Assembly (NCBI RefSeq): GCF_004362395.1
Contig: NZ_SNWE01000028.1
Span: forward strand, 1 to 52,828
Direction of reading: 5' to 3'
Length of the DNA stretch: 52,828 bases
Origin: Salegentibacter sp. 24
Lineage (GTDB): Bacteria; Bacteroidota; Bacteroidia; Flavobacteriales; Flavobacteriaceae
The position numbers were made by a program, and so were the translations under genes. Below are positions 693 to 21,582 of the stretch, in pieces. How positions within the stretch are numbered: position 1 is the first letter of the stretch; each line of letters begins with the position of its first letter. The notes under the pieces are model-generated. The model saw only the letters and a program-made list of their open reading frames with translations, made no database searches and had not been told where the DNA came from.

Positions 693-713
693 TATTATTG
701 AATTAAAGTTAAT

Positions 714-1241: not shown

Positions 1242-1244
1242 AAG

Positions 1245-1697: not shown

Positions 1698-2193
1698 AAT
1701 TATGCTTGTTTGTTAGACTTTCCTTTATTTTTTTTCTTGCCCTGGATAATGCTACCCTAACGGCAGTGGGTTTCATCTTAGTAATTTCAATGATTTCATC
1801 AAACTCCAATTGCTCAATATCCCTTAGCTGAAATATAATCTTCTGCTGTTGCGGTAAGTCATTTACAATTTTATCTATCCAGTTAAGTTCATCTTTCACC
1901 TCAAGCTCTCTTTGCAGGGAAATTGAGTTGTTCTCAAAATTCTGATGAACAATTCTTAAATTATTGTTCTTTTTGGCTTTTAGCTCATCCAAACAGTAAT
2001 TTTTTGTAGTTGTCATTGCAAAAGCTTCAAAATTGGTATAGTCCTTGATTTTATCTCTACGATTCCACAGTTTAATAATTACTTCCTGTGTAGCATCTTC
2101 TGCTGCTTCTTTTGAAATAAGCAGCCGTAATGCAAGCCGGTACATCTTTTGTTTTACCGGATTAATTTTTACCAGGAAGGCTTGTTGTATCAT
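1678..2193 (-). CDS. RNA polymerase sigma factor, ECF type
   Basis: This 171-residue protein has the two-domain plan of ECF sigma factors. Region 2 lies near residues 10-80 (EAAEDATQEVIIKLW, then the acidic/aromatic region ending in TKNYCLDELK). Region 4 lies near residues 110-160 (LPQQQKIIFQLRDIEQLEFDEI, then helix-turn-helix KPTAVRVALSRARKKIKE). It directs RNA polymerase to a private promoter set, probably including its own operon of an anti-sigma-like protein and two DUF4252-type envelope proteins. The ATG at 2193 gives a normal N-terminus. The trigger is not visible in the sequence. Confidence 0.93.
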   Translation of the reverse strand: MIQQAFLVKINPVKQKMYRLALRLLISKEAAEDATQEVIIKLWNRRDKIKDYTNFEAFAMTTTKNYCLDELKAKKNNNLRIVHQNFENNSISLQRELEVKDELNWIDKIVNDLPQQQKIIFQLRDIEQLEFDEIIEITKMKPTAVRVALSRARKKIKESLTNKHNYGLKKG

Positions 2194-2314
2194 TTATAGT
2201 TGGTTTAATAACCTTCTTACCTTTTAAACGATTAACGGTAATATTTGTTACAATAGGATTTTCAATTTAATTAATTGTAGGTATTTTTAGCAATCCAAAA
2301 CAAACTTAAAATTT

Positions 2315-5020: not shown

Positions 5021-6862
5021 TTAAAAATTAAGGTTTAGGTATATATTAAAATTTCTACCGGGCATCCACCGGTTTTCTACACTTTGGTATTCTTCATTAA
5101 AAATATTGAGCACCCTGGTCCCAATCTTATAGGAATTTTTTCTACCGAAATCGTATGAAAATCCAAGGTTTGAGACCACATAAGCAGCCATATTGTATTG
5201 GGAATTATTATCTGACCTGGTAAAAACCTCGCCATTATATAGCAATTGATAATCTATGCTAAGGTTTTTAAAACCATATGTAAATGCTCCCGTAGCTTTG
5301 TGAAATGGCACATAAATAAGCTGGTAGCCGGTATTACTATTCTTTGAAACCGTATAGGCATATGTTCCAGATACGCCCATTTGATGGTTTGGGAAAATTT
5401 GTTTCCGCCAGTTGGCCAACACTTCAAGTCCGGAGGTTTCTACTTTTTCTTCGTTTCTGGGGCGCCAGAGCCCTCCTACTGATGGCAACCAGCGTATCAT
5501 ATCATCGATTTGAATATAATACCCGGTTAGGCTTAACTTGAAGTCTTTGTATTTAAAATGGTTTCCTATCTCAATCTGATTGGAAGTTTCAGGACGTAAA
5601 TCCAGGTTTCCGGCTCCTGCCCAGTAAAGATCGTTGTAAGTTGGAATTCTAAAATTCCTGGAAATATTCATTTTTAAACTATAGAATTCGGTAAAATCAT
5701 AATTTGTTCCTGCAGAAAATAACAAGGGACTCTTATAATTATCGGTTATTTCTTTCCTGATTCCCAATTCGTATTGAAATTTCTGAAATGGCCTGTGTTT
5801 CATTAATAATGCTGAAGAAAATATATTTCGAGTATTTTCTTCAATTCCAGACCCGCTACCATCGGTATATGTATTGGTTAATACGCCATTAAATTCCAGC
5901 GTTTTGGATGCCGCATACTTTAAATCATATTTTCCAATAATCGTTTTGGCTTTCCCAAAAGAATTATCCTCTGAGACAATACTGGCATAATACCTGTAAT
6001 TTTCATTCAAATGCGCAAACCTGGAAACAGAAATAAAATCACCAAATTCAATTACCCATTCCAGTAAATTCCGCGTATTTAAATTAGTGTATTTAGTTTT
6101 GGTTTCCGAAGATCGAATCAATGAAAAATGCCGTTCTCCATCGAAAAACTGACTGTAAAATTTTAAAGTGTTTTTCTTATTTAAGCGATAAGCCAGACCT
6201 AAATCCAAATTATTATTATAGAATTGGCCATTTTCATTTTCCCGGTTTCCAATCGGCCATTCATAATCATTATCAGAAGAATTCCTGGCTGCAGCTATAC
6301 TTAACCTCCATTTTTTTTCCGAAGTTTTTACTTTATATCGGGCATCTACAGTATTATAACTTCCGTATTGTAAAAAAATATCCTGCTTGGTTTTTCCGCT
6401 AAAATCAAGGTTGGTATTCAAATGGACAGTACCACCAATAGCACCTGTGCCGTATACCACGCTTCCACCACCACCTCGAACGCTAACATTATCGTAACCG
6501 CCAACATTTAAAGTATTAAAATCGGTTTGACCGTTAAACTGGGAATTGATATTTATCCCATTCCATAACACGGCAGTTTGGGAAGCTGTGGTTCCGCGGA
6601 AGGAAGGTGAGGAAACCATCCCAAGGCCATTTTCTTTAAAATAAATATTGGTATTAAAATTTAAGGCTGAGGTAAGCAGTGCCCCGTTTTTCTTTAAAAC
6701 TGAATCGTTTAAAACCGTAACCTGCTGGCCGGTAGAAAAATCTTTCAGTTTTGTATCGGTCAGGAAAACCTCGTCTAAAACCTTAACTGTATCGTTTTGA
6801 GCAAAGGCGGTCATGCTGCATAACAGACTAAGGAATAGGATATAAAATTGCGTTTTTTTCAT
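5021..6862 (-). CDS. btuB: TonB-dependent outer-membrane cobalamin receptor
   Basis: This 613-residue protein has a signal peptide ending at AFAQ (about residue 22), a plug domain near 30-150 (FRGTTASQTAVLWNGININ, then VSVRGGGGSVVYGTGAIGG) and a 22-strand-type barrel ending in an aromatic residue (NIYLNLNF). Its length is that of BtuB; SusC-type receptors are about 1000 residues and come with SusD, which is absent here. The cobalamin riboswitch directly upstream on the same strand and the adjacent BtuFCD genes fix the substrate as a corrinoid. It should pass cobalamin from BtuG across the outer membrane using TonB energy. Confidence 0.92.
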   Translation of the reverse strand: MKKTQFYILFLSLLCSMTAFAQNDTVKVLDEVFLTDTKLKDFSTGQQVTVLNDSVLKKNGALLTSALNFNTNIYFKENGLGMVSSPSFRGTTASQTAVLWNGININSQFNGQTDFNTLNVGGYDNVSVRGGGGSVVYGTGAIGGTVHLNTNLDFSGKTKQDIFLQYGSYNTVDARYKVKTSEKKWRLSIAAARNSSDNDYEWPIGNRENENGQFYNNNLDLGLAYRLNKKNTLKFYSQFFDGERHFSLIRSSETKTKYTNLNTRNLLEWVIEFGDFISVSRFAHLNENYRYYASIVSEDNSFGKAKTIIGKYDLKYAASKTLEFNGVLTNTYTDGSGSGIEENTRNIFSSALLMKHRPFQKFQYELGIRKEITDNYKSPLLFSAGTNYDFTEFYSLKMNISRNFRIPTYNDLYWAGAGNLDLRPETSNQIEIGNHFKYKDFKLSLTGYYIQIDDMIRWLPSVGGLWRPRNEEKVETSGLEVLANWRKQIFPNHQMGVSGTYAYTVSKNSNTGYQLIYVPFHKATGAFTYGFKNLSIDYQLLYNGEVFTRSDNNSQYNMAAYVVSNLGFSYDFGRKNSYKIGTRVLNIFNEEYQSVENRWMPGRNFNIYLNLNF

Positions 6863-7259: not shown

Positions 7260-8414
7260 ATGAAAAGAAACACTGCAAAGGCACTTACAGTTCTTCTGCT
7301 GTTTTTAGCATTTACCGCCTGTAAAACCGATCAGAAAAAACAAAAACCAGATTCTGTACAGACTGGAAATTCAGTTGAATTAAGCTATGCTAAAAGTTTT
7401 AGCATTAGTGATTTTGGAGATTATTATCTTCTTAAAACAACAACTCCATGGCCAAATGCTGAAAATTCCTTTACTTACCTACTTGCCAAAAAAAACGCTG
7501 AAATCCCTGAGCATTTAGATTATGATCAAAGAGTGCAGATTCCGGTAGAAAAAATGGTGGTAACCTCAACCACTCATATACCGGCATTAGAGATTTTAAA
7601 TGAAGAAACCAGCCTGATAGGTTTTCCAGGTCTGGATTATATTTCTTCAGAGCAAACAAGAAAATTAATTAATTCAGGAAAAATCAAAGAACTGGGAAGA
7701 AATGAAAGTATCAATACCGAAGTTCTTATAGATCTTAATCCGGATGTGGTGGTAGGTTTCGCGATAAATGGAAATAACAAAAGTTTCGAAACAATCCAGA
7801 AAACAGGAATTCCAGTAATGTACAATGGGGACTGGACTGAAAAAACACCGCTGGGAAAAGCAGAATGGATTAAATTTTTCGGCGTTTTTTATGATAAATT
7901 AAAAGATGCTGAGAGGATTTTTAATAATATTGAAACGGCCTATGTTGATGCCAAAAAATTGGCGAAATCGGCCGAAAAAAGTCCTAAAGTTCTAAGTGGT
8001 GCAATGTATAAAGATCAGTGGTATCTACCCTATGGGAATTCTTGGCAAGCGCAATTTTTAAAAGATGCCAATGCGAATTACATATACTCCGAAACCCAGG
8101 GAAACGGCAGTATGGCCTTATCTTTTGAAAGTGTACTCGCAAAAGCCAGGGATGTAGAATTTTGGATTAGCGCCGGTCAATTCACTTCCTATTCCAAACT
8201 TTTAGAAGAATCTCCACATTATCAGCAATTTGATGCAGTAAAGGATAAAAATGTCTATAGCGTAAGTTTAACAAAAGGTGAAACCGGCGGCGTTATTTAT
8301 TTTGAACTCGCCCCCCAACGACCAGATTTGGTATTAAAAGACCTGGTCTCCATTTTTCATCCCGAATTGCTTCCAAATCACAAGAGGATATTTTTTAAGG
8401 CCCTGGAAGACTAA
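7260..8414 (+). CDS. btuF: Cobalamin/iron-siderophore type ABC transporter substrate-binding lipoprotein
   Basis: This 384-residue protein has a lipoprotein signal (FTAC, Cys near residue 20). A class III binding-protein domain follows: VVTSTTHIPALEILNE, GFPGLDYISSEQ, LNPDVVVGFAING and, after the long linker helix, FWISAGQFTSYSKLLEESPHYQQFDAVKDKNVYS. This is the TroA/BtuF-FecB fold. It picks up cobalamin in the periplasm and delivers it to BtuCD. It opens a rightward operon with the permease (122 bases on) and the ATPase. Taken alone it could be siderophore-specific, but the riboswitch-linked btuB beside it argues for B12. Confidence 0.85.
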   Translation: MKRNTAKALTVLLLFLAFTACKTDQKKQKPDSVQTGNSVELSYAKSFSISDFGDYYLLKTTTPWPNAENSFTYLLAKKNAEIPEHLDYDQRVQIPVEKMVVTSTTHIPALEILNEETSLIGFPGLDYISSEQTRKLINSGKIKELGRNESINTEVLIDLNPDVVVGFAINGNNKSFETIQKTGIPVMYNGDWTEKTPLGKAEWIKFFGVFYDKLKDAERIFNNIETAYVDAKKLAKSAEKSPKVLSGAMYKDQWYLPYGNSWQAQFLKDANANYIYSETQGNGSMALSFESVLAKARDVEFWISAGQFTSYSKLLEESPHYQQFDAVKDKNVYSVSLTKGETGGVIYFELAPQRPDLVLKDLVSIFHPELLPNHKRIFFKALED

Positions 8415-8536
8415 TCTGAAGGAGAATAATAATGTACTTTATTTTCGTAATATCAGATGAAATTCCATTATAGATCTTCTTTAATTTTATCTCCTCAATT
8501 TATTTCAGATATTTACATCGAAATAAATAACCGGCC

Positions 8537-9568
8537 TTGTTGCAGTCCCAAAAATATGTTCTTCCGCTATTGCTCCTCTTTTTAGGAGTGATTTTTCTTG
8601 GTTTTTTGAATATCAGTCTGGGTTCGGTTGATATTCCACTTAAAGATGTTTTTGCTTCAATTCTTAATTTAGAAGTTACTAAAGAAACCTGGCGGTACAT
8701 AATCGTAGAATACCGTCTGCCAAAAGCAATAACAGCAATTATAACAGGCTCAGGCCTGGCTATAAGCGGACTTTTAATGCAAACCTTATTTCGAAATCCA
8801 CTAGCCGGCCCATATGTGCTAGGTTTAAGTAGCGGCGCAAGTTTGGGTGTGGCAATTGTAATCATGGGAGCTTCTGTATTTGGCCGAGGTTTTGCAGGAA
8901 TTTTACTTTCACAATGGAGTTTGGTAATTGCCTCCAGCTTTGGAAGTTTATTGGTGTTAATCGCTGTAATGTTAGCTTCCCTGAAGCTTAGAGATACCAT
9001 GGCAATTCTAATAATCGGCCTAATGTTTGCAAGCTTAACTGCAGCTGTAGTAAGCGTACTTTCTTATTTTAGCCCGGCGACACAGTTACAACAATATGTG
9101 TTTTGGTCTTTTGGAAGCCTGGGAGACCTTTCCTGGGATGAAGTAGGAATCCTGACCATGTTTTGGGTAGTTGGAATAATTTTAGCTATTTCCTGTATCA
9201 AAAACCTTAACACCCTTTTGCTCGGTGAGAAATACGCCAAAAGCCTGGGTGTTAGCATTCAAAAAAACAGATTTATAATTATAATTGCTACCAGTCTACT
9301 GGCAGGTAGTATTACCGCTTTTGCCGGGCCTATCGCTTTTGTAGGGTTAGCTGTTCCCCATTTAATACGACAAATAATACCAGTTAACAATCACAGTATC
9401 CTGGTGCCCGCCGTTATTTTAGGTGGTGCTGCCTTAATGCTTATTTGCGATATCGTGGCACAAATGCCGGGTCAGGAATATACATTACCTATAAATGCCA
9501 TAACTTCGCTAATTGGAGCTCCGGTGGTAATATGGCTGTTGGTGCGTAAACGTAAATTTTTATTCTAA
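8537..9568 (+). CDS. btuC: FecCD/BtuC family ABC transporter permease
   Basis: This 343-residue protein has about ten hydrophobic segments. FecCD-family signatures include VEYRLPKAITAIITGSGLAISG..MQTLFRNPLAGPYVLGLSSGA and, near the C-terminus, AGPIAFVGLAVPHLIR. It is the membrane half of the BtuCD importer. Only TTG codons are available as start: TTG at 8537 or the next codon at 8540. An in-frame stop lies 9 bases upstream, and the first in-frame ATG would remove the first membrane segment. The gap to btuD is 2 bases. Confidence 0.9.
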   Translation: MLQSQKYVLPLLLLFLGVIFLGFLNISLGSVDIPLKDVFASILNLEVTKETWRYIIVEYRLPKAITAIITGSGLAISGLLMQTLFRNPLAGPYVLGLSSGASLGVAIVIMGASVFGRGFAGILLSQWSLVIASSFGSLLVLIAVMLASLKLRDTMAILIIGLMFASLTAAVVSVLSYFSPATQLQQYVFWSFGSLGDLSWDEVGILTMFWVVGIILAISCIKNLNTLLLGEKYAKSLGVSIQKNRFIIIIATSLLAGSITAFAGPIAFVGLAVPHLIRQIIPVNNHSILVPAVILGGAALMLICDIVAQMPGQEYTLPINAITSLIGAPVVIWLLVRKRKFLF

Positions 9569-9570
9569 AA

Positions 9571-10365
9571 TTGAACCAGAACCAAAATCATAGCATTCTC
9601 AGAACCATCGATCTGGATATTGGTTACAGCAATAAAGCAAAAAAAACAATTATTGCTGAAGCAATAAATATTGAAGTAAATGAAGGGGAGCTTGTGGCCG
9701 TAATTGGTATAAACGGTGTTGGAAAATCTACTTTTTTACGAACATTAAGCGGGGTGCAGGATGCATTGAAGGGAAAAGTTTTGGTGAAAAATGAACAAAT
9801 TCAACAAATAGATTCCTTAGAACTTGCTTCTTTAGTGAGCCTGGTCCTTACTGAACAACCGATTTCTAAAAATTTAAGTGTGTTTGAACTTGTAGCATTA
9901 GGTAGACAACCTTATACCAATTGGATTGGAAGACTCGGGAAAAACGATTTGCGACAAATCAAGAAATCTTTACAAAATGTGGGGATTGAAGATTTACAAA
10001 ACAAAAAATGCTTTGAATTAAGCGATGGTCAGCTGCAAAAGGTCTTAATTGCTAGGGCTATTGCTCAAAATACGCCCCTGGTAATTTTAGATGAACCCAC
10101 TACACATTTAGATTTATATCATAAAGCTTACGTACTGAAGTTGCTAAAAAAACTGACTCGAAAAACCAATAAAGCCATTGTTTTTGCTTCGCACGAAATT
10201 AATCTTGCTATTCAGCTGTGTGATAAGATTATTTTGATGCAGGAGAGCAACGTAATTACAGGCTCCCCAACAGGCCTACTGGAATCCGGTGCATTCTCCA
10301 CGGTTTTCCCTGAAGGTTTAATCGTCTTTGATAAAGCTACAGCTTCGTTTAAAATTAATCCTTAA
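9571..10365 (+). CDS. btuD: ABC transporter ATP-binding protein for cobalamin import
   Basis: This 264-residue ATPase has Walker A GINGVGKST at 46-54, the signature at 150-154 reading LSDGQ in place of the usual LSGGQ, Walker B VILDEP at 171-176, the D-loop HLD and the switch ASHE near 210. It powers BtuC. The start is TTG, since no in-frame ATG precedes the Walker A region. The gene follows btuC by 2 bases and its TAA overlaps the stop of the opposing Pel-type gene by 4 bases (TTAA at 10362-10365). Confidence 0.9.
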   Translation: MNQNQNHSILRTIDLDIGYSNKAKKTIIAEAINIEVNEGELVAVIGINGVGKSTFLRTLSGVQDALKGKVLVKNEQIQQIDSLELASLVSLVLTEQPISKNLSVFELVALGRQPYTNWIGRLGKNDLRQIKKSLQNVGIEDLQNKKCFELSDGQLQKVLIARAIAQNTPLVILDEPTTHLDLYHKAYVLKLLKKLTRKTNKAIVFASHEINLAIQLCDKIILMQESNVITGSPTGLLESGAFSTVFPEGLIVFDKATASFKINP

Positions 10366-13300
10366 TCATTTTCTTTCAAAAAATATTTTAACCCGAAGCT
10401 AAAGTTATTTGAATAGAAGTTTTTAAGTGTGTAAAATTCTAATTGGGTATTAAAATGAAGGTATTTTGAAATTGGCCATAATAAACTGCCGCGGTAGCGC
10501 TGAAATTCCTCTGAAAAAGTATCGAGGAAATACCCCGCATCGAGATTTACCTTCCAGAAATTCTTTTGATTTAAATATTCATAAGCAATACCAAGGCCGC
10601 CGTATAATCTTTCATCCAAAGTCCAATACGGGTATCCTCCTGGCCTTTTAGTGTTTCCTAGCATACCAGATAATTCAGTATAAGACCTAAATTTCGATCT
10701 TTTATTCAGCTTAAAATCCATCGATAAACTGGTAAGTGCCTGAACATCTACAACGTTTTCATCGTCATAATGATTTCCTTCTACATAAAAAACGGCCTGG
10801 AATTTTTCTTTAAACTGAAGTTCCTCGTATATATTAACCTGGGTTTGATATATATTTAAATTATAGGCAGGGCCTGTCAAAGCTGGTTTTCTAAAAAAAG
10901 TAAACGAACTGTATAGACTGTCTTTTGCAATAGATGCGGAAGCCTGTAGATGAAGATAGGTTTTGCCGGCATTATTAAATTCTAACCTGGTCCCAAATCC
11001 ATAATTGAACTTTTCTAATCTTTCCCTGGTTTGAAACCTATAAATAAACCCACTTAAATTGGCTTCTCTATTGTTTTGCAGTTCTGGCTGAAAAGGAATC
11101 TCGTAGGCCGTATAACGGCTCACACCAAATTGATGCTGATTTTGTCCTTTGTCCCGAATTCCATAAATAGCTTCTGCACCAAAGGCAGTAGGATCTAACC
11201 TATCACTAATCACATTGCTGCCAATTTGAAGAAAATTACCTTTGGTTATTCTTAAGTTCTGTTTTATCTGCGAGGCTACCTCTGGATAAAAAAGAGAAGC
11301 GTGCTCTTTCAGCAAAAGTCTTTTTTGATCTGGTTTTAAATAAACAACATCTTTGTTTAACTGGGCCCTTAAACCTTCTTTTTTTGTTGAATTTGGAAGT
11401 TCTGCAACTATTTTCCAGGCATTAACAATATCACCTCGACCCATATAAAATTCAGCCATAAACTCTCGTACAGCCAATTTATCTTCGCCGTTATTTCCTG
11501 AATAATTGGCATATATACGCTCAATTTCACTGTAATTTCCTAAAGAATTTAGCCAAAACATACGTTCTACTAAAGAAAAATTCTGGGCGCATAACGACCA
11601 CTCCAAGGCTTTTCTATAGCTTCCCTGACCGGCGTAGGCATAGGCAATTGTCGTAGCTAAAGGTTGGAGTTCCTTCCTGCATGCTTTAACTTCAAGTAAT
11701 TCCTGCGTAGCTTTTTTAGCGTTATCGGCAAGGAGATACTCTATGTAGAGAGAAAAATTAGTTTCTTTTAGAAATTCATACTCCCCTGACTGTATGCGCC
11801 AGTCCCTTATTACATTTTCTGAAATATTTTCGCTGCATTCTGCCCATAAAATAGCTTGCTTATAGTTATTGGCATCGGCAAAAATCCATGCAATTGTGGA
11901 AGAAGCAAGTTTAAAGTCATCTCGACAAGCCTTTATGTTTTCAACCAGATTATATGCAGCCTCAGGATCCTTCTCATTAAGCAATAATAAATAGGTAAAG
12001 CGCTCTTGATTAATCTGTGTATTTTCAATAAGTTGCAGTAACTCTTCGCGACTTAGCTGCACCTGGGTATCGCTTCCAAAATAGGCTATAAAATCCTTTC
12101 TGAGTTTTATATTATCGGGATACATATCAATAAGCCTTAACATCCAACGTTTCCTGGTTTGCATATCAGGATAATCACTTTGTCTTGTGAACTCCGCAGC
12201 TAGTTTTACGTATTCAGAAGATCTATTCTGATTGTATTTCTTTTCCAGCAATGTCCATATCTCCTTCTGCCTACTTTTCCAGCCCAAATACTTAAATAAC
12301 TCTAACCAATCCTCGCTGACAAATTTATCACTTCTACCAATTTTAGATTTTAATTCAATTATTTCTGTATCAACACTCTCAAGAATTCCTGAAGGTTTCA
12401 TTAGGCGATAAGCTTCAAACTCTTCTATTGTTGAATTGAGGAGATTTTGTGCATTTTCTCCTTCGAACTTAGGTAGGCTCAGATGTTTTCTCGGGGTTTT
12501 TATATTAAATAGAAATCCTTCTAAAAAAGCAGTTTTAGTAAACTTAAGTTGTTTATCCATTAAAAAATCTTCTACCCTGGAAATATTTGGCTCACGAACA
12601 TATGCAAACCAAAAATTCTCACTCTTAGCAGTCTTTTTAATGCCGGACTTTACAATGATATTGTTTTCAGTTTGCTCGAACTCATAAGGTTCTTCACGCC
12701 AGTTTTGGGTGATTTTTGCAGCTTCAGAAACTTTTAAAAAACGAATAAACGGAAAGGTACTCTTCACCTTTTTAATATAATTCTCGAACCTTGGTAAAAG
12801 GCCAGGCGTACCATCTTCAGATATTATCCAACCATAGCTGTTTTTATTACGTAAGGTATAATCCCCTGTTCTTTTTAGGGGATCTTCGCCAGGAATTTCA
12901 TAAATATCATCCGGGTGTATAAAATGCGTCCAAATACCGGTATAGAGATACAGGGATTGCTGATTAAATTCACGAGAAGGAGTCATAACATATCCGCTAC
13001 TAATCCGTGGATAATTAAAAAAATGACTGTTATATGGTTCAGGATCAAACTCTCTATCCCCCCCTTCCTTAAAATCACCCAAATAAATACTTGCGTTATA
13101 AATAATACTAGGAATGTTTTCTTCTAAAGCGATAAAACCAGTGCTATCTATAATATTTGAAGGTGGTACATAAGAAATGGGAAGGGTTCCATAATTACGT
13201 GCAGCCCAACGCTTTTTAACAGCTTCAATACTTAAACCCATATAATCCTTATTAGGCCATTCTTCCAATGTAAGAGAAGCATGATTATACCCATGCAATG

Positions 13301-14366
13301 CCACTTCGTGTTCAGATTTTTTGATGTCAATCATAAGCATATCGGCTAAATTGCCAACATCCGAACTATTTAAAATGGAATTGTCCCATTCCCGAAAATT
13401 AAAGGGTGGGGTGGTTTGGTTAGAATAATCAAAACAAACATAAGCTGAATAATCTATATTATATTTCTGAGCTAATTTCAGCATATCCTCCCACCAAACC
13501 TCTGTGTAAAATCGGGCTTGAGTTATATCCATTTCTGAATCTACAGGTTCCAATTTTACATTATAAAGCGGCGCTGGAAAATCGTCTAGCATTATACTGG
13601 AAGCATTTGCTACGGGATAGGGAACACCCTCTAAACCGGATAAAATCGCAGAAAAGAACAGGCCTCTTTCTCGTTTTTCAGTAAATTGTTCCGTATTGAA
13701 GGAGATTACAGCACCCCTTCCTATTTTATTTTTAATTATTAAAGGATAATTTTCTTCAGAGAGCGAGCTTGCTAGAATCTCGATATCTTTCCTGAAATTG
13801 TTAGCCTTAAGTCCATAGTGTTTCGTTTGATTTTGATAAAACTTTCCTTTAAAATTTGGGAGAAAATTTGTGCGAAACAAAAAACCCTGCGCCGCGGTAT
13901 CAATTTCATAATTAGCATCTGCTGTAACCCCTGCCAAAAACCCATAATTTTTATTAGTTCCTACTGTTGGAATAACTATATGCCCCCCATTAGAAACAAA
14001 TTTTATAAGCAAAGACATAGCAGATTTATTCAAGGCAGCTAAATCATAAATCACTATGACTTTTACAGTATTGTTTAACTGTGGTTCTTTATTAAAACCA
14101 TCGAGATCAATTTCTGCGAATGGAATTTTTGCGTAATTTAAAGCCTTTTTAATATGGTTTTTATTCCTAAGACTTAAATCATCATCAGGCTCCAGGATAT
14201 AAGTTACCCACGGATTGCTACTATTGGCATCGTATATTACTCGTGGACTATTTTCTTGGATTCTTTCTGATTTCTTATCAGTTTCACAACTAATTATTGC
14301 AAAAGAGCACAAGAGTAAAATAATAGAGTTTAGGAATTTTTCTGGTAACTGGATCATACTCTTCAT
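10362..14366 (-). CDS. Fusion of PelA-like polysaccharide deacetylase with PelB-like TPR and outer-membrane beta-barrel
   Basis: The protein is 1334 residues. Residues 1-27 are a lipoprotein signal (IISC, Cys27). About 95-250 form a Rossmann/glutamine-amidotransferase-like part (VIVIYDLAALNKS, FVSNGGHIVIP, GRGAVISFNTEQF). About 255-560 form a CE4-like deacetylase: DD at 261-262 in MLDDFPAP, HGYNH with His358 and His362, PPSN at 401-404 and HFIHPDD with His484, the expected metal and catalytic set. Residues about 640-1010 are helical TPR-type repeats (YAYAGQGSYRKALEW). About 1040-1334 are amphipathic beta strands of an outer-membrane barrel. In Pseudomonas these functions are split between PelA and PelB, which bind each other. 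It is the last gene of the operon; its ATG overlaps the upstream stop by one base (TGATG). The N-terminal deacetylase family may be DUF2194, from memory. Confidence 0.8.
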   Translation of the reverse strand: MKSMIQLPEKFLNSIILLLCSFAIISCETDKKSERIQENSPRVIYDANSSNPWVTYILEPDDDLSLRNKNHIKKALNYAKIPFAEIDLDGFNKEPQLNNTVKVIVIYDLAALNKSAMSLLIKFVSNGGHIVIPTVGTNKNYGFLAGVTADANYEIDTAAQGFLFRTNFLPNFKGKFYQNQTKHYGLKANNFRKDIEILASSLSEENYPLIIKNKIGRGAVISFNTEQFTEKRERGLFFSAILSGLEGVPYPVANASSIMLDDFPAPLYNVKLEPVDSEMDITQARFYTEVWWEDMLKLAQKYNIDYSAYVCFDYSNQTTPPFNFREWDNSILNSSDVGNLADMLMIDIKKSEHEVALHGYNHASLTLEEWPNKDYMGLSIEAVKKRWAARNYGTLPISYVPPSNIIDSTGFIALEENIPSIIYNASIYLGDFKEGGDREFDPEPYNSHFFNYPRISSGYVMTPSREFNQQSLYLYTGIWTHFIHPDDIYEIPGEDPLKRTGDYTLRNKNSYGWIISEDGTPGLLPRFENYIKKVKSTFPFIRFLKVSEAAKITQNWREEPYEFEQTENNIIVKSGIKKTAKSENFWFAYVREPNISRVEDFLMDKQLKFTKTAFLEGFLFNIKTPRKHLSLPKFEGENAQNLLNSTIEEFEAYRLMKPSGILESVDTEIIELKSKIGRSDKFVSEDWLELFKYLGWKSRQKEIWTLLEKKYNQNRSSEYVKLAAEFTRQSDYPDMQTRKRWMLRLIDMYPDNIKLRKDFIAYFGSDTQVQLSREELLQLIENTQINQERFTYLLLLNEKDPEAAYNLVENIKACRDDFKLASSTIAWIFADANNYKQAILWAECSENISENVIRDWRIQSGEYEFLKETNFSLYIEYLLADNAKKATQELLEVKACRKELQPLATTIAYAYAGQGSYRKALEWSLCAQNFSLVERMFWLNSLGNYSEIERIYANYSGNNGEDKLAVREFMAEFYMGRGDIVNAWKIVAELPNSTKKEGLRAQLNKDVVYLKPDQKRLLLKEHASLFYPEVASQIKQNLRITKGNFLQIGSNVISDRLDPTAFGAEAIYGIRDKGQNQHQFGVSRYTAYEIPFQPELQNNREANLSGFIYRFQTRERLEKFNYGFGTRLEFNNAGKTYLHLQASASIAKDSLYSSFTFFRKPALTGPAYNLNIYQTQVNIYEELQFKEKFQAVFYVEGNHYDDENVVDVQALTSLSMDFKLNKRSKFRSYTELSGMLGNTKRPGGYPYWTLDERLYGGLGIAYEYLNQKNFWKVNLDAGYFLDTFSEEFQRYRGSLLWPISKYLHFNTQLEFYTLKNFYSNNFSFGLKYFLKEND

Positions 14367-16357
14367 CAGTATAATAATTCATTAACATTACTGGAACCTG
14401 TCTTATTTACTATTTGGTAAACAGTTAAATCATTATTTTGGTAATACGTATCTATATTTCTCCCTTTAGCTTTTAAAAGATCTATTCTTTGCTGCGCGAT
14501 AACCTGTTGATCTTTAATCTTTTCATTCTTAGCAAACTTGCTATCTTCCATATTGTTATAAATAAACACAAACAGCGATTGAGGTAAAATTACATTTGGA
14601 TTATTATTAAGGTATTGGGTATCATCTTTATATTTATTGAATTCTCGGTCTCGTGTGATATACCTATTATTAAAATAATCGTAATCATAGTAATAATGAC
14701 TGTTTTTACTAAAGCTGGAATATGGTGTTGAATTTACAACAGCATAAGAATAAGGCAAATGCTTCGATTGTATTTTTGAATAGGCTTCGAAAATAAGGTT
14801 CTTTGTTTTATCCGTTTCAAAATTAAGGCTAGCTGCCCCCGGAAAGGTAAATAACACCAATGCCCCAATAGTTAATATCCCTCCACTTACTTCAATGGTT
14901 ATAGCCCGTCTGGGAGCCAAATTGAAAAAAGAAAGAAGATCGATTAAAATGTTAAGAATGATTCCGAAGAAAATTGGAATAAATATACAAAGGACCTGAC
15001 TCAAAATATCCAGGTCTACTAAAACTTCATCTAATTGGTAAATACCAAAAAAGATATTTATAAAAATTAGAAAAACGATGCTTGCTAACCATTTTTGGGG
15101 TTTTTTGATATAGTTGAAAATAGTAATGATTAAAAAAACTATCCCTGCAAATTGATAATAATAAATAAGTTCGTCAAAGGGAATAATTAAATGTGGATTA
15201 TAGGTATAGGTATCGAAGGAATAGAAGTTAGACATTAAAAAAGCTAGAAAATCTTCCCCCTTAATTAGGGCGGCAAGACCATATATACTTCCTATTAAAA
15301 TTACTGAAGCCAGGTAAGCAAAAATTAGTTGAGAAATTTGCTTAAGGTTATCCCTGAATTTAAATAAAAATAAAATAAGTAAAAATGGGAATAGGACAAA
15401 AATGCCGACAAAAATATCTATCATTAACACAGCGCTGAATAAAATCGGCATCCAACCAAAACTCATCCTTCTATTAAGACGAAAACTTTGAGGATAAATA
15501 CAAAAGAACATCGTTGGTAAAGCAATAACAAGCGCGGTAAAAACGGACTTATGCTGAGCTAACAATTCTATATTTATTGGAAGAAATGAATAAAGTAAGG
15601 CGAAACTCAGCCCCGCCATGATACCGGAAGAATGTTTTCTGGAAATCTTAAATACCACCCAATAGATTATTAAAGAAAGTAAGGCAGACTCCAGTACTCC
15701 GAAAGATTGTAATGCCTGGGCGTATGTAATATGGGTTATTTTAGAATAAAGGTTGATAAGCAAATAATCTCCCATCATTTCACCTGACTGAAAAAACCAT
15801 TTATCTAATGACAGCCCATTTATAAGCTCCAGATTATTAAACCAACTCGAAGAAAGCGTGTAAATATCTTGTTGAAAAAGGGAATTTCTAGAAATATATG
15901 TGATAACGGGTAATAGAAAACCAATGGCTAACTGCCAGTTTTTATGATACCGTGATAATCCCTGTTCCTTATTTTTATAGGTTGGCTTAATGATATTATC
16001 ACGATCTAAAAAACTCTTCCGTTTCTCAAGTTTTATAGTGGCATACAAAATAGTACGGGAATAAATTCGCTGCAATTGATCCTTTAAAGATTTGCTAAAA
16101 TCCAGTTTCATAAATGTAACCATAGTGAGCATTATCACTATGCTAATTAGGACGAATAGATCAAATGTCCTGGTCAAGACTAGGACAAAACTCCCCGTAA
16201 GTACTGCAGCAAGTACCAGGGTAATGGTAGGGATTAAAAAGTTCAAGGCAGTGAGTGCAGAAATCCTGGTTGAAATTAATCTATGCACTATTAGGATTAA
16301 TGCAAATAGAAATATTATCCGCAATGGACCAGATAGTAGGTAGGGCTCTAAAAACAT
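14366..16357 (-). CDS. Polytopic inner-membrane protein of the Pel-type locus, function unknown
   Basis: This 663-residue protein has roughly a dozen hydrophobic segments. Three come at the N-terminus, followed by a basic cytosolic stretch near 90-135 (SLKDQLQRIYSRTILYATIKLEKRKS). A longer membrane block spans about 145-510, and a hydrophilic C-terminal tail of about 130 residues is rich in Tyr, Asn and Asp. The membrane block, with a first outside loop WFNNLELINGLSLDKWFFQSGEMMGDYL, resembles GT-C-fold or lipid-linked-sugar membrane enzymes, but I do not recognise the family. It sits between the glycosidase (8 bases) and the deacetylase-barrel fusion (1-base overlap), so it should act in the same polymer pathway. 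It could stand in for PelE/PelD as an assembly scaffold, modify the chain, or supply substrate. Confidence 0.8.
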   Translation of the reverse strand: MFLEPYLLSGPLRIIFLFALILIVHRLISTRISALTALNFLIPTITLVLAAVLTGSFVLVLTRTFDLFVLISIVIMLTMVTFMKLDFSKSLKDQLQRIYSRTILYATIKLEKRKSFLDRDNIIKPTYKNKEQGLSRYHKNWQLAIGFLLPVITYISRNSLFQQDIYTLSSSWFNNLELINGLSLDKWFFQSGEMMGDYLLINLYSKITHITYAQALQSFGVLESALLSLIIYWVVFKISRKHSSGIMAGLSFALLYSFLPINIELLAQHKSVFTALVIALPTMFFCIYPQSFRLNRRMSFGWMPILFSAVLMIDIFVGIFVLFPFLLILFLFKFRDNLKQISQLIFAYLASVILIGSIYGLAALIKGEDFLAFLMSNFYSFDTYTYNPHLIIPFDELIYYYQFAGIVFLIITIFNYIKKPQKWLASIVFLIFINIFFGIYQLDEVLVDLDILSQVLCIFIPIFFGIILNILIDLLSFFNLAPRRAITIEVSGGILTIGALVLFTFPGAASLNFETDKTKNLIFEAYSKIQSKHLPYSYAVVNSTPYSSFSKNSHYYYDYDYFNNRYITRDREFNKYKDDTQYLNNNPNVILPQSLFVFIYNNMEDSKFAKNEKIKDQQVIAQQRIDLLKAKGRNIDTYYQNNDLTVYQIVNKTGSSNVNELLY

Positions 16358-16365
16358 ATTTAACT

Positions 16366-17178
16366 TTAGTTTTTACCAGGAATTTTTTGCAGTTCGATCT
16401 TTCCTATAAAATAGGGCCAGGAAGTTCTTTTTAATCTTTCTTCTACCTGTTCCTTTAGTTCTGCATTATCGGCATATTCAATCAATACTATCGGAACTTC
16501 AAAATCTTTATACATCTCTTTAAGTTCATTCAAGAGCCTTGTGAAAATTTTGTCATCTCGTAATTGGTATTTCTTATTCTTAAAATCATAATCTGTAGCA
16601 ATACTCTCTTTTGCTATTGCGTCTATAAATGGATTGGTGTCTTTTACAATAGAGATTCCGGCATTCTGAATCAAATAAATATCCGGATACGTATTATTTA
16701 AGTCTTTTAAGAAAGCTAGAAGTGCTTCTTTTTTTTCAGGAGTGGGCCCAAATTCGGTATAATTATCAATATTATCCAGAAACATTCCATCTAGACCTTT
16801 TTGCATATTATAATCAAAGATCTCCATAAGTGCTTTCTGGGTTCTCTTATTCTCCATATTCAGAATATAACTATTCCAAATCTCGTTTTTTCCCAGTGTA
16901 AATTTTTCTAGTTCTAGATAATGAGCGGCAGCTTCGTTAACTTCTCCCAGGCTTACATAACCTAAAACCTTGTCGTTTTGTTTTTTTAAAACCTCGATAT
17001 CTTCACTATCAAAATGTGCGCTCTCAATTACCAGTATTTCGTAACCGGAAACATCCTTAGGATAAAAATCGCCGTAGGTGAAAAGCACTTGTTTTTTCTC
17101 CACAGTTTTTTGGGCCACAATCTGGGGAACGGTGAAACAAATTGTTCCTATAATCATAAAATATTTAATAAGATGCAT
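16366..17178 (-). CDS. Secreted PelA-like glycoside hydrolase (endo-alpha-1,4-galactosaminidase type)
   Basis: This 270-residue protein has a signal peptide ending near IVAQ (residue 23) and a single TIM-barrel domain of the TM1410/GH114-GH166 type. Motifs run in the order YEILVIESAHF (46-56), VLGYVSLGE (71-79), GLDGMFLDNID (128-138), YPDIYLIQNAG (164-174), IDAIAKES (185-192) and VPIVLIEYAD (228-237). This matches the N-terminal hydrolase domain of PelA, which cuts alpha-1,4-linked GalNAc-rich polymer in the periplasm. Here it is a separate gene. Its start overlaps the end of pelG by 14 bases, a sign of translational coupling. Likely catalytic acids are Glu79 and Asp135. Confidence 0.85.
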   Translation of the reverse strand: MHLIKYFMIIGTICFTVPQIVAQKTVEKKQVLFTYGDFYPKDVSGYEILVIESAHFDSEDIEVLKKQNDKVLGYVSLGEVNEAAAHYLELEKFTLGKNEIWNSYILNMENKRTQKALMEIFDYNMQKGLDGMFLDNIDNYTEFGPTPEKKEALLAFLKDLNNTYPDIYLIQNAGISIVKDTNPFIDAIAKESIATDYDFKNKKYQLRDDKIFTRLLNELKEMYKDFEVPIVLIEYADNAELKEQVEERLKRTSWPYFIGKIELQKIPGKN

Positions 17179-18778
17179 AATAATAATAGTCCAGATTTTT
17201 AAAAAAGCGATAGGTTACACTCGTGGTTAATAACATAAAAATAAAAGAACCAATCAGCATTCCTATGACACTATACTCGTAACCAATCCACCTGCTTGCA
17301 AGAATGCCAATAAATAAGTTCACCAAAAAAGCAATAACTATTGCTACTAAAGGTTTTCTATGTTGGCCTAGGGTGTAAAGGTATAATACATTAAGCATCC
17401 CCAAGCTAAGGAATAAATAACCAATACTTCCCAAGATACAAACTTTGATACTCAAGGGGCTGAGAATTTCTTCGAAACCTGATTTATAACCCCAGGGTTG
17501 GGTAATTAAGAAATATATAAAGATAGCTATACCTATAGCACTAACCCCAAATAGACGCAAGTGTTTAAAGTACATCCTTTTCATTTTATTATTGAAGTTA
17601 TAATATTCAGAATACTTTATTTCCAACTGGTGAAAATCCATATGTCTTATATAGGAATGAATTGCATATTCCATGACCCCGCCCAGCAAGAAGAAAATTA
17701 AAATAGCAAGATCCATCCCTATCTCATAATCTTTTTCATAATAAATAACATAAGGAATATCTCTGTTTAGAGTGGAAGACCAGGCTACTATCCTGTCTAA
17801 AAAAACGAAAAGGAAAATAAATGTACCGTAAAGAAAGTAATTGAAATTTCTATATAATGAAAGCATTACTTTAGGTTTCTTTTTTACGGCAACATGCTTT
17901 TTCAGTTTATACCTAAAGAATAAATAAATATAACCTACAGATATTAACGAAGCCGTAAGAATACCAATCCAATGTATAAAGTAAGGATGCAATTCCGAAT
18001 TAAAATGAAGTAAAAGCGCTAATGCTGTACCTATGAAAACACTAACAGAAAGCATCCACCTTTGTTTTAAGGCATAGAGCGGTGCTAAGACCAGTAGTAA
18101 AAAACCAATAAGCAAGGCATATGAAAAGCTTATTAAAACAAAAAGGAAACTGTAGAGTGGAAAAATAAAATTTATGATAACAGAAACTATAAAAAAGCCG
18201 AAGATAGCGAGCGTACCATTTTTAATAATCCTTTTGGTAGAATAACTTGCCATATGATAATCTTTGTTATACCAATAGTAAGAAACCTGTTTACCAATAA
18301 CCTGTATAAAACCGCCGCTGATTACAAAGCCAAGAATTACTCCCAGTACCACAGCGGTAGACTGCAGATTGTTAAACCTTGAATAGGTCCAGAGAGAGAA
18401 ACCAAAAAGAATTATTGCAAATACCTGTAAAAAAATTGGAAACAAATGGATGAGTCCCGAGCTATAATCAGCGATAAATCGTTTAGTATTCTTAGTAGTT
18501 ATATAATCGGTTAACGCGAGCCTCTTGTAGGTTTTTGCCTCTGCAATACGTTGGTTATTGTTCTTGAGATTGGCCAGAGTTACCGCATCGTATGCTTTAT
18601 AGATATATTTGGATAGATGAAAAATGCTTTCAAAACCATAATCTTCTTTAACATCGTTCTCGCGAATACCAAAGGACTCTATAGTTGCGGCTACAACATA
18701 CACGTTTACCGGTTTGCCATTGCGTTCTTTAACCGCAACTACAAGTTTTGCAATAGCCTTGATTTGGTCTTTATTCAT
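17165..18778 (-). CDS. pelG: PelG-like polysaccharide transporter (flippase superfamily)
   Basis: This 537-residue protein has about twelve membrane segments and ends in FFKNLDYYYYASY, the aromatic C-terminus typical of PelG. It lies directly between pelF and a PelA-like hydrolase. PelG belongs to the MOP flippase superfamily and pairs with PelF to polymerise and move Pel across the inner membrane. The first 100 or so residues are a soluble, charged, helical region (KAIAKLVVAVKERNGKPVNVYVV, YGFESIFHLSKYIYKAYD) absent from the Pseudomonas protein, which begins straight in the membrane. The gap to pelF is 2 bases. Confidence 0.85.
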   Translation of the reverse strand: MNKDQIKAIAKLVVAVKERNGKPVNVYVVAATIESFGIRENDVKEDYGFESIFHLSKYIYKAYDAVTLANLKNNNQRIAEAKTYKRLALTDYITTKNTKRFIADYSSGLIHLFPIFLQVFAIILFGFSLWTYSRFNNLQSTAVVLGVILGFVISGGFIQVIGKQVSYYWYNKDYHMASYSTKRIIKNGTLAIFGFFIVSVIINFIFPLYSFLFVLISFSYALLIGFLLLVLAPLYALKQRWMLSVSVFIGTALALLLHFNSELHPYFIHWIGILTASLISVGYIYLFFRYKLKKHVAVKKKPKVMLSLYRNFNYFLYGTFIFLFVFLDRIVAWSSTLNRDIPYVIYYEKDYEIGMDLAILIFFLLGGVMEYAIHSYIRHMDFHQLEIKYSEYYNFNNKMKRMYFKHLRLFGVSAIGIAIFIYFLITQPWGYKSGFEEILSPLSIKVCILGSIGYLFLSLGMLNVLYLYTLGQHRKPLVAIVIAFLVNLFIGILASRWIGYEYSVIGMLIGSFIFMLLTTSVTYRFFKNLDYYYYASY

Positions 18779-18780
18779 TT

Positions 18781-20304
18781 CTATAATAAATCTCCGATCT
18801 TTGTGCGTTTAGGCTGAACTTTTTTACTTTTCATAATATCCTGATAAACATCTTCATATTCACTTACAAATTTATTTAAGGTAAAGTTTTTCAAAACTTT
18901 TTCCCGGGCATTTTTTCCCATCGTTTTTCGCAAATTTTCATCTAGAAGTAATTTGGTAACAGCCTCTCCAATTCCTTCAACATCTTTTGGTTTACAGGTA
19001 AAGCCACAGCTTTCATCGAGGGCTTCTTTAACACCTCCCACTTCAGTGGACACCACGGGAATTCCGCAACCCAAAGATTCAATAACCGTATATGGAAAAC
19101 CTTCAGAAATCGATGTTAGTATAGAAAGGTCTCCTTCAAGGAAAATATTTTGAGGATCACTCCTGGGCCCCATAAATTTGAAATTTTCCATTAAATCCAG
19201 TTCCTTTATAAGTTCCAGGCATTCCTTAGTATATTCCGGAACTGCCTGGTCATCTCCATACACTAAATACTGAACCTTCGGAAAAGTCCTTTTCACTACT
19301 GCGCAAGAGCCTATCATCGTTAAAATATCTTTTAATTCAAATACCCTGGCCACTGCTACTACGGTCGGAATATCTTTTAAATGTGAAGGTTTTGGACCAG
19401 GCCTGAAAATATCCGGATCAATACCATTGTAAATTATTTTAAATTTTTTAGGATCCGCACCATACCATTTTTCCCATTTTTGATTAAATGTAGTTACGGA
19501 TACAATCACATCAGCCTTGTAATAAGCCAAACGAGCAATAGCTTCAGAGAATCGGATTAACAGGCTTTTTAGAAAATATGGATATTCAGAATTGCTTATG
19601 GCTAACAACCTTTCCCTAATAAAGACGCCGTGTTCAGTAAGCATAATTTTGGTTCCATACTTGTAATTCGCTATTAAGGCAGGGATAACCGGGAAACCAC
19701 TAAGGGTTAAATGAGCTACATCAACTTTAGGAATGTTGACTATGGCAAGAGGTATTAAAAACCTATAGATCCAACGTAGTCCAATGGTAATATCTATTAA
19801 AGAGGCATCAGGGTTACGCTCCCCTATTATAAATTTAGCCAGGGTATCTCGGTAAGTAGTCCAAACATGCCTGCTTCTAATAGTCTCTTTATAATCATAA
19901 TCTTCAAAATAGAACCATAATTGGTGGAAAATTATATCCAGATCTTCCATATTCTGGTCATCGCTATAAATGAATTCCAGTAGGCCTTTAAAAAGGGGAA
20001 TAAACTTTTGTTCCACTATTTCGTCATTGGTCCATTCCTTTTTAGCAACAGTCTTATAATATTCTTCCCCATAACTAATATAATCATACGGCTCATCTGG
20101 CGTCCATAACGGAACCTGGATAACTTCGCTAATATTATCGCTGAGTTTATACTTGGGTTCTTTCTCAAAAGAAGCATTTATGGAGTACAATTTAAAATCT
20201 ACGTCACTCACTTTATTGCATAAATGATGTGCCCAAGTTGATACCCCTCCGCCATTAAATGGATAGGTACCTTCTAAAATAAGCATTACCGATGGTTTTG
20301 CCAT
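18781..20304 (-). CDS. pelF: PelF-like cytosolic glycosyltransferase, GT4 family
   Basis: This 507-residue GT-B enzyme has the PelF hallmarks: N-terminal MLILEGTYPFNGGGVSTWAHH, the mid-protein LTEHGVFIRER, then IIYNGIDPDIFRP, VVAVARVFELKD and the GT4 nucleotide-sugar motif SEGFPYTVIESLGCGIPVV, with the E-x7-E acids in the last. PelF uses UDP-GalNAc/UDP-GlcNAc to extend the Pel chain in the cytosol. It is the first gene of a five-gene leftward operon (pelF, pelG, hydrolase, membrane protein, deacetylase-barrel fusion). A -7 box ends 17 bases upstream of the ATG. Confidence 0.92.
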   Translation of the reverse strand: MAKPSVMLILEGTYPFNGGGVSTWAHHLCNKVSDVDFKLYSINASFEKEPKYKLSDNISEVIQVPLWTPDEPYDYISYGEEYYKTVAKKEWTNDEIVEQKFIPLFKGLLEFIYSDDQNMEDLDIIFHQLWFYFEDYDYKETIRSRHVWTTYRDTLAKFIIGERNPDASLIDITIGLRWIYRFLIPLAIVNIPKVDVAHLTLSGFPVIPALIANYKYGTKIMLTEHGVFIRERLLAISNSEYPYFLKSLLIRFSEAIARLAYYKADVIVSVTTFNQKWEKWYGADPKKFKIIYNGIDPDIFRPGPKPSHLKDIPTVVAVARVFELKDILTMIGSCAVVKRTFPKVQYLVYGDDQAVPEYTKECLELIKELDLMENFKFMGPRSDPQNIFLEGDLSILTSISEGFPYTVIESLGCGIPVVSTEVGGVKEALDESCGFTCKPKDVEGIGEAVTKLLLDENLRKTMGKNAREKVLKNFTLNKFVSEYEDVYQDIMKSKKVQPKRTKIGDLL

Positions 20305-20610: not shown

Positions 20611-21582
20611 ATGAATGTAATTAAATTAAGTACTGCATTATTTTGTTGCTTATTTCTAACAAACCAAACTTTGATTGCCCAGGAAACTATAGATTATCGC
20701 AAAGAAATGCGTGATTTAGTTATTGAATTAAGTGAAAGCGCCAAAACTAAACATCCTAATTTTATAATTATCCCCCAAAACGGCGTGGAACTTTTAATTG
20801 AAGGATCTGAAAATCAAGAAAGCAGGGCCATAGATTATTTAAATGCAATTGACGCGGTGGCCCAGGAAGATCTTTTTTATGGTTACCCAAAAATCAACAA
20901 ACTCACCCCTCTATCGGAAAATTTATACTTAAAAACTTATCTTGATCTGGCAAAAAAAAATAAGAAAGAGGTTTTAACAATAGACTACGCTTCTACTCAA
21001 GAATTAATAACCGATTCTTACAAACGTAATAAAGAAAGCGGCTATATCTCATTTGCTGCGCCAAGACGGGAATTAGATCATATTCCAGCCTACCCGGTAT
21101 TCTGTGAGAACAGCAAAAATATAGACGACCTTTCAGAAGCTAAGAATTTTTTATACTTTCTCAATTATGCTAATTATTCAACAAAAAAAGAACTGATTAG
21201 CGAATTATCCTTTACAAATTATGATCTTATCGTATTAGATCTCTTCTTTCAGAATCAAGCTTTTACTAAAGAGAATATTGCACAGTTGAAAAAGAAAAAA
21301 AACGGGGGTGACCGACTTGTAATAGCCTACATGTCAGTTGGGGAAGCAGAAAATTACCGTTACTACTGGAAAAAAAATTGGAACTCAAAACCTCCAGAAT
21401 GGTTCGTCGAGGAAAATCCGAACTGGGAAGGTAACTTTAAGGTTAAATACTGGAAGGATACCTGGAAAGAACTTATTTATGGAAACGAAGAAGCCTACCT
21501 TAAAAAGATTATAAACGCCGGATTTGATGGTGTCTACCTGGATATTATTGACGGTTTTCAATACTTTGAAAACAAAGAATAA
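20611..21582 (+). CDS. Secreted TM1410/GH114-type glycosidase with permuted halves
   Basis: This 323-residue protein has a signal peptide ending near LIAQ (residue 24). It belongs to the same TIM-barrel glycosidase superfamily as the hydrolase inside the pel operon, but the motif blocks come in the opposite order. MRDLVIELSESAKTKHPNFIIIPQNG (33-58), IDAVAQEDLFYG (80-91) and VLTIDYAS (121-128) come first. NYDLIVLDLFF (203-213), RLVIAYMSVGEAE (235-247) and AGFDGVYLDIIDGF (303-316) come last. It should cut a galactosamine-containing polymer outside the inner membrane. It is divergent from pelF with its own -7 box, so it can be expressed separately as a remodelling or release enzyme. The substrate is inferred from context. 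Confidence 0.85.
   Translation: MNVIKLSTALFCCLFLTNQTLIAQETIDYRKEMRDLVIELSESAKTKHPNFIIIPQNGVELLIEGSENQESRAIDYLNAIDAVAQEDLFYGYPKINKLTPLSENLYLKTYLDLAKKNKKEVLTIDYASTQELITDSYKRNKESGYISFAAPRRELDHIPAYPVFCENSKNIDDLSEAKNFLYFLNYANYSTKKELISELSFTNYDLIVLDLFFQNQAFTKENIAQLKKKKNGGDRLVIAYMSVGEAENYRYYWKKNWNSKPPEWFVEENPNWEGNFKVKYWKDTWKELIYGNEEAYLKKIINAGFDGVYLDIIDGFQYFENKE

Follow-up and report, generated by a model that had tools for sequence, protein, structure and literature searches.

A Pel-Type Exopolysaccharide Operon of Salegentibacter with a PelADA-Type Deacetylase and a Predicted Outer-Membrane Export Pore in One Protein

Organization of the Pel-Type Locus

The window analyzed in this work, that is, the whole stretch of DNA under study, comprises 52,828 nucleotides of Salegentibacter sp. 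24 (contig NZ_SNWE01000028.1 of assembly GCF_004362395.1, positions 1–52,828 of the forward strand). On its reverse strand, from position 20304 down to 10362, five genes follow one another, with no overlap or gap longer than 14 bases (Table 1). This locus is a Pel-type exopolysaccharide operon with a deacetylase and a predicted export pore in one protein, a fusion of 1334 residues. The operon type had already been proposed in a first-pass annotation of this DNA, and the proposal holds: the PelF-type glycosyltransferase scores 175 bits against a curated cut-off of 100 (NF038011, E = 2.9e-51) and is accompanied by a PelG-like exporter, a PelA-type hydrolase, and a deacetylase of the PelADA type.

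The reading frame of the fusion runs through its 1334 codons without interruption. A frameshift or an assembly artefact joining two genes was considered and ruled out, since 96 distinct intact fusions were found, with frames of 1240–1372 residues. These 96 sequences, the window's included, remain after removal of four duplicates from 100 intact fusions and form the basis of the residue counts given below; the lipobox count uses all 100. Two copies with broken frames (L129 and L162) and the copies cut by contig ends were left out. We also noted a match resembling the Bacteroidota-type promoter (TTG / TAnnTTTG) upstream of pelF; it lies in AT-rich sequence and, for want of a chance expectation, is not claimed as a promoter.

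Table 1. Features of the Pel-type locus in the window (fusion residues are numbered from the start of the 1334-residue protein).
Feature	Positions	Strand	Evidence
PelF-type glycosyltransferase, 507 residues	18781..20304	-	NF038011, DUF3492 and GT4 domains
PelG-like inner-membrane polysaccharide exporter, 537 residues	17165..18778	-	PF16933 slightly under cut-off
Stand-alone PelA-type hydrolase, 270 residues	16366..17178	-	PF03537; PelA structures
Polytopic membrane protein, 663 residues, with predicted GT-C-like fold and C-terminal soluble domain	14366..16357	-	AlphaFold2/Foldseek
Fusion, 1334 residues: PelADA-type deacetylase, predicted TPR-like arm, predicted outer-membrane barrel	10362..14366	-	Profiles and model
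Signal peptide with lipobox-like IISC, Cys27	14286..14366	-	Motif alone
CBM114-like domain, residues ~50–245 (approximate limits)	13632..14219	-	Alignment to PelADA 9ZAU
CE26-type deacetylase domain, residues ~250–555 (approximate limits)	12702..13619	-	Alignment and residues
Predicted TPR-like helical scaffold, residues 665–1042	11241..12374	-	Model, profile matches
Predicted 16-strand outer-membrane barrel, residues 1045–1329	10380..11234	-	AlphaFold2, Foldseek
Divergent second hydrolase, 323 residues, circularly permuted relative to TM1410	20611..21582	+	TIGR01370, half-alignments

Deacetylase Half of the Fusion

Judging by its sequence, the N-terminal half of the fusion is a deacetylase of the CE26/DUF2194 type known from Gram-positive Pel operons. 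The Pfam family DUF2194 matches residues 59–588 with E = 7e-73, and the check for a match to an unrelated family thus returned a polysaccharide deacetylase family. The best match among solved structures is PelADA of Bacillus cereus (PDB 9ZAU; fusion residues 51–490, E = 1.5e-40), the protein on which the families CE26 and CBM114 were founded (PMC13254593). The residues named for PelADA, namely D262, D263, the HxxxH motif, P405, R458, H488, and D491 (PMC13254593), have their counterparts in the fusion in the same order: D261, D262, H358, H362, P401, R454, H484, and D487. At the level of family and active-site residues, this half therefore corresponds to a putative deacetylase of an N-acetylgalactosamine (GalNAc) polymer. 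Across the 96 fusions, D261, D262, and R454 are invariant, and H358, H362, P401, and H484 are kept in 89, the remaining seven having R, D, A, and N at these positions.

The first-pass annotation had described a PelA-like deacetylase with an Asp pair at 261–262, His358/His362, and His484. All of these residues were found where it had placed them and the deacetylase assignment stands, but the likeness to PelA does not. A phmmer search of the PDB sequences with the full-length fusion up to an E-value of 1 returned 9zau, one unrelated weak match, and nothing else, so that the CE21 deacetylase of Pseudomonas PelA (9cgy) was unmatched at this threshold. The CE21 identity is thus unsupported, and the description should read PelADA-like (CE26).

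Predicted Exporter Half and Lipid Anchor

The C-terminal half is predicted to consist of helices resembling tetratricopeptide repeats (TPR) followed by a 16-strand outer-membrane barrel. An AlphaFold2 model of residues 636–1334, built on an alignment of 84 sequences, has a mean predicted local distance difference test score (pLDDT) of 92.9, with TPR-like helices at 665–1042 and 16 strands at 1045–1329. It agrees with the earlier expectation of TPR repeats and a C-terminal barrel at 1040–1334, continuous with the deacetylase, and on this model the absence of a barrel was rejected. The top five Foldseek matches in the PDB were BcsC, BcsC, 4y25, BcsC, and chain M of PelBC, which was taken as PelB; 4y25, whose entry names a polysaccharide outer membrane secretin, is presumably PgaA. 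PelB, BcsC, and PgaA share a 16-strand barrel (PMC12141448). The predicted structure thus contains the PelB-type combination of TPR and 16-strand barrel, fused to a deacetylase. In the Pfam searches, a divergent relative in locus L063 matched TPR families strongly and the PgaA barrel weakly.

At its N-terminus, the fusion carries the lipobox-like motif IISC at residues 24–27, with Cys27 as the putative lipidation site. Among the 100 fusions, 75 have a strict lipobox, 16 a relaxed one, and nine have none; by eye, seven of these nine begin with a plain signal peptide. The combination of an N-terminal lipid anchor with a C-terminal barrel had been called topologically unusual, which is overstated, given that TamL of Bacteroidota unites both in one protein (PMC12045153) and that some relatives of the fusion have no anchor cysteine. 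TamL differs from the fusion in being a TamA-like assembly protein with POTRA domains and no enzyme domain (PMC12045153).

Distribution and Conservation of the Fusion

The five genes were found in one order in 62 of the 80 loci named by record, which are the best 80 of 148 found. The other loci are eight orphans with no operon nearby, nine loci on contigs that end inside the locus, and L162, which has the full gene order and a broken fusion frame. In a separate set of 25 loci, PelF, PelG, the 663-residue protein, and the fusion share a strand in 24; the 270-residue hydrolase is present as well in 23 (in two pieces in L081). By record name, the carriers belong to Gillisia, Salegentibacter, Christiangramia, Mesonia, Maribacter, Flavobacterium, and Cellulophaga, among others. 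Viral carriage was not observed, none of 19 pattern matches in viral_contigs encoding a relative.

The first-pass annotation had suggested a profile search for the deacetylase–barrel architecture across Bacteroidota, and the architecture indeed recurs in relatives across the phylum. Among 296 genomes of the phylum, PelF exceeds the cut-off in 23, and the same 23 have a DUF2194 match with E < 1e-50, in frames of 1268–1349 residues; G338, with a partial DUF2194 match of 30.8 bits, was excluded from this count. Among 397 genomes of the family, all 15 with PelF over the cut-off carry DUF2194, three genomes with PelF matches of 77–81 bits, under the cut-off, being excluded. That the PelF and DUF2194 searches covered the same genomes in each sample is taken from their equal numbers and shared labels, the lists of genomes with no match being incomplete. 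Hence, no genome of either sample has PelF over the cut-off without the DUF2194 fusion, and a split version with separate deacetylase and exporter was seen in none of these genomes. A shorter frame of 843 residues in G494 has its match 837 bases from the contig end and is cut there. The reverse case, DUF2194 without PelF over the cut-off, was met among the 397 family genomes in two genomes of genus g75, G577 and G075, the copy of the latter being the orphan L062. As a side observation, both DUF2194 and PelF exceed their cut-offs in Thermotoga maritima, which served as a control genome.

Orphan Fusions in Maribacter

The seven intact orphans (L062, L120, L122, L124, L125, L136, and L151) all come from Maribacter-named records, L062 being identical to L130 (Maribacter sedimenticola). 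They are exactly the seven of the 96 fusions without the metal-binding histidines (RxxxD, P401A, H484N); other Maribacter records have the complete operon and an intact active site. PelF over the cut-off was found in none of the eight orphan genomes (the seven and that of the broken copy L129) versus five of five operon genomes, and in the orphan genomes the glycosyltransferase matches did not rise above 43.4 bits. Similarly, the 663-residue protein was absent from all nine genomes searched (the eight orphan genomes and G577) versus present in three of three operon genomes. With active-site loss confined to orphans that have no PelF over the cut-off, the active site goes with the synthase.

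The ratio of nonsynonymous to synonymous substitution rates (dN/dS) in the orphans is ~0.01–0.12 per domain (15 pairs from six orphans; dS was saturated in many cases, and the ratio could not be computed for one domain), and in nine operon pairs it is ~0.02–0.25. By this measure, the orphans are under purifying selection and are not decaying. Except for one short open reading frame, the neighbor genes of three orphan loci were matched in all eight orphan loci.

Hydrolases and Neighboring Genes

The 270-residue protein bears out the earlier statement that a separate gene encodes the hydrolase. It matches PF03537 (E = 8.6e-18) and the hydrolase domain of Pseudomonas PelA (PDB 9cgy and 5tcb, E ~ 1e-14), and PelA D160 and E218 have their aligned counterparts in its D135 and E191, the offset of 25 between PelA chain and numbering having been worked out by hand. 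The PelA D160A E218A double mutant is termed hydrolase-inactivated (PMC12022489). This catalytic Asp/Glu pair is present in all 66 aligned hydrolase sequences, the window's included.

Next to the operon, on the forward strand, lies the gene for a second hydrolase of 323 residues, which matches TIGR01370 with E = 9e-55. Since its residues 197–320 align to residues 21–139 of TM1410 and its residues 31–156 to 151–274, the two halves stand in swapped order, and by alignment the protein is a circularly permuted hydrolase of the TM1410/GH114 type. A relative is found nearby in 30 of the 62 complete loci, and 31 sequences of this type, the window's included, align with conserved residues spread over their length.

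On the other side of the operon, a cobalamin riboswitch (RF00174, 6897–7150 on the reverse strand, E = 5.8e-19) precedes the gene for a TonB-type receptor (5021–6862), and the adjoining genes at 7260–10365 resemble, by eye, a vitamin B12 uptake set.

The 663-Residue Membrane Protein

No Pfam or NCBIfam family matches the 663-residue protein, and a sequence-profile search of the PDB gave no useful match. Its AlphaFold2 model (pLDDT 83.2; predicted template modeling score, pTM, 0.86) resembles GT-C enzymes in Foldseek with a probability of 1.00, albeit with TM-scores by query length of 0.30–0.40; the closest structures are bacterial PglB, yeast oligosaccharyltransferase, Dpy19, ArnT, ALG, and AftA. 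In GT-C glycosyltransferases, the first periplasmic loop contains a catalytic Asp. The candidate in the 663-residue protein, Asp164 of the presumed first loop, is present in 65 of 81 alignment rows and replaced by N, H, or S in the other 16. In 70 of 72 non-orphan named loci, the gene directly precedes that of the fusion; in the remaining two, the contig starts so close to the fusion that there is no room for it. On the predicted fold, the protein may work as a glycosyltransferase, or may descend from one and serve as a scaffold; it probably acts at the inner membrane, either as a GT-C-type enzyme or as a scaffold replacing PelD/PelE.

Cyclic di-GMP and Regulatory Genes

In Pseudomonas and B. 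cereus, Pel production is activated by cyclic di-GMP (c-di-GMP) bound to PelD (PMC13254593; PMC7112168). No GGDEF domain was detected in the window genome at E = 0.001, a search to which eight of 14 control genomes were positive, and among the 24 other operon genomes three have such a domain. Therefore, control of the window operon by c-di-GMP through PelD is unlikely. A search for PelD with PF16963 found no match, not even in a control, and is uninformative.

Other regulatory genes were observed in related loci. Two loci from other families carry an HD_5-domain gene in the operon between PelG and the hydrolase (L064:6403–8025 and L079:9062–10693), and L064 has a response-regulator/kinase pair upstream. 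Four sequences of HD_5 genes in such loci keep HDIG and have GTP, GSP, or GMP in place of GYP. In L063, a divergent Pel locus of the same phylum, two PelF-type genes are adjacent (567–3309); SpoIIE-phosphatase and GAF/HD_5 genes are also present, and a match to the 270-residue hydrolase was not found there.

Proposed Mechanism and Alternative Explanations

We consider it likely that the operon encodes a Bacteroidota form of the Pel machine, in which deacetylase and exporter are combined in one outer-membrane protein. The proposal starts from the computed domain content, catalytic residues, predicted barrel, operon structure, and co-occurrence. From these we infer the substrate, the order of steps, their coupling, and the subcellular location. 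PelF would polymerize the chain, by its family from UDP-GalNAc, and PelG would carry it across the inner membrane. The fusion would then take up the chain, its carbohydrate-binding and CE26 domains binding and partly de-N-acetylating it; the TPR-like arm would guide the chain, and the fusion's own 16-strand barrel would release it. With the lipobox-like Cys27 and the barrel, the protein would be held in the outer membrane at its N- and C-termini alike, the carbohydrate-binding, deacetylase, and TPR-like domains lying between the two in the periplasm. In Pseudomonas, PelB binding raises deacetylation by PelA (PMC12022489); the fusion would fix an interaction of this type permanently and covalently, with one deacetylase per pore. 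Deacetylation would most likely be covalently coupled to export, and, as the first-pass annotation had predicted, every chain would be deacetylated at the mouth of its own exporter. As the PelA-type hydrolase is a gene of its own, we propose that cutting is no longer tied to deacetylation.

Several observations weigh against this reconstruction. Regarding the exporter half, the pTM of the model is 0.66 and the TM-scores of the top five Foldseek matches are modest by query length, at 0.32–0.37 (normalized to its own length, 4y25 scores 0.72). When the PDB sequences were searched with a profile of the TPR-barrel alignment, TPR and pentatricopeptide repeat (PPR) proteins were matched, and no exporter appeared among the 60 matches listed of 69; Pfam, too, gave neither a TPR nor a PgaA-barrel match for the window fusion. 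The assignment of the TPR-like region and the barrel thus comes mainly from the predicted model and, for the barrel, from Foldseek. The putative lipid anchor is a motif only and is not universal among the fusions. Regarding the operon, the PelG-like protein scores 28.2 bits against a PF16933 cut-off of 29 (E = 1.2e-6); of six PelG relatives scanned, two exceed it (L091, 91% identical to the window protein, with 32.5 bits, and L063 with 29.9 bits) and four have no match. None of the five operon genes is a candidate for PelC, PelD, or PelE, the genome as a whole not having been searched for PelC or PelE. Finally, the identity of the polymer as Pel is read from the genes.

As an alternative, the operon could make a related but different polymer, for instance a decorated or differently linked amino sugar instead of plain alpha-1,4-GalNAc, with the GT-C-like protein adding side sugars or anchoring the chain. 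The resemblance of the 663-residue protein to GT-C glycosyltransferases and its steady place upstream of the fusion speak for such a product, as do the divergence of PelG and the fact that no such subunit is named in the available portions of the Pel literature consulted (PMC13254593, PMC7112194, PMC7112168, PMC12141448, PMC12022489). Nevertheless, PelF and the active sites of both the hydrolase and the PelADA-type domain are conserved, while the GT-C assignment is at the level of fold and the candidate Asp164 is variable, and we regard a different polymer as rather unlikely. A smaller probability still is given to the fusion being made as one chain and then cleaved, giving a soluble deacetylase and a PelB-like exporter that would not be covalently coupled in the cell. 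Pseudomonas has separate proteins (PMC12022489), and the model has a low-confidence stretch just ahead of the TPR-like region (residues 656–662, pLDDT < 50). On the other hand, a processed pair need not remain fused, and DUF2194 lies in unbroken frames of 1268–1364 residues in all PelF genomes of the two samples, save the contig-cut G494, which makes processing improbable. We give very little credence to a fusion that no longer exports polysaccharide and has another role in the envelope, as the orphans may have. Such a role would fit orphans that stay constrained although they have neither the metal-binding histidines nor PelF over the cut-off or the 663-residue protein; however, the active site is lost only in orphans, and the intact copies with PelF visible alongside all keep it.

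Comparison with Known Systems and Significance

Several known systems come close to the fusion. PelADA of B. cereus belongs to the same family and has the active-site counterparts in the same order, but it is a protein of a Gram-positive cell with an N-terminal membrane helix and ends at about residue 610 (PMC13254593), whereas the fusion continues beyond its PelADA-like part into a predicted TPR-like arm and outer-membrane barrel. PelB of P. aeruginosa, solved with PelC (PDB 9h80; PMC12141448), likewise has a TPR arm followed by a 16-strand barrel, and is separate from the deacetylase, with an inner-membrane helix, 19 TPRs, and a PelC ring (PMC12141448, PMC12022489); in the fusion, the arm is shorter, and the operon has no PelC candidate. 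In Pseudomonas PelA, a GH166 hydrolase and a CE21 deacetylase form one protein, whereas here the hydrolase is encoded separately and the deacetylase is of the CE26 type. Another related design is the BcsZ-BcsC fusion of Zymomonas cellulose operons, in which a periplasmic polymer-processing enzyme is likewise fused to an outer-membrane export pore; it differs in involving a hydrolase instead of a deacetylase, cellulose instead of Pel, and an alpha-proteobacterium (PMC7112194). Among the entries listed from the open-access literature searched, we found no report of a deacetylase–exporter fusion in Pel operons, nor of its covalent joining, its constancy in samples such as ours, or the missing c-di-GMP module; the parts themselves are of known kinds. 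The co-occurrence of the fusion with PelF, the GT-C-like membrane protein, the absence of GGDEF proteins, and the second, circularly permuted hydrolase had escaped the first-pass annotation.

A wider proposal is possible, although we hold it only tentatively: a distinct, phylum-wide Pel class would use a one-chain deacetylase-exporter, would be mostly free of control by c-di-GMP and PelD, and would decorate or anchor its polymer by means of the GT-C-type enzyme; one lineage, Maribacter, would have switched off the deacetylase and retained the exporter for a new function that does not involve PelF.

In Pseudomonas, PelA and PelB must find each other, and the link between Pel deacetylation and export is still an open question there. 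Because deacetylase and exporter are joined here, a single protein allows their linker, ratio, and order to be studied, and the Maribacter orphans offer a natural experiment in which loss of the active site coincides with the absence of the synthase. The findings place the PelADA (CE26) type, known from Gram-positive cells, in a protein that also has a predicted outer-membrane barrel, give testable roles to DUF2194 and to the family of the 663-residue protein, and suggest that Pel production is possible in cells that lack GGDEF enzymes.

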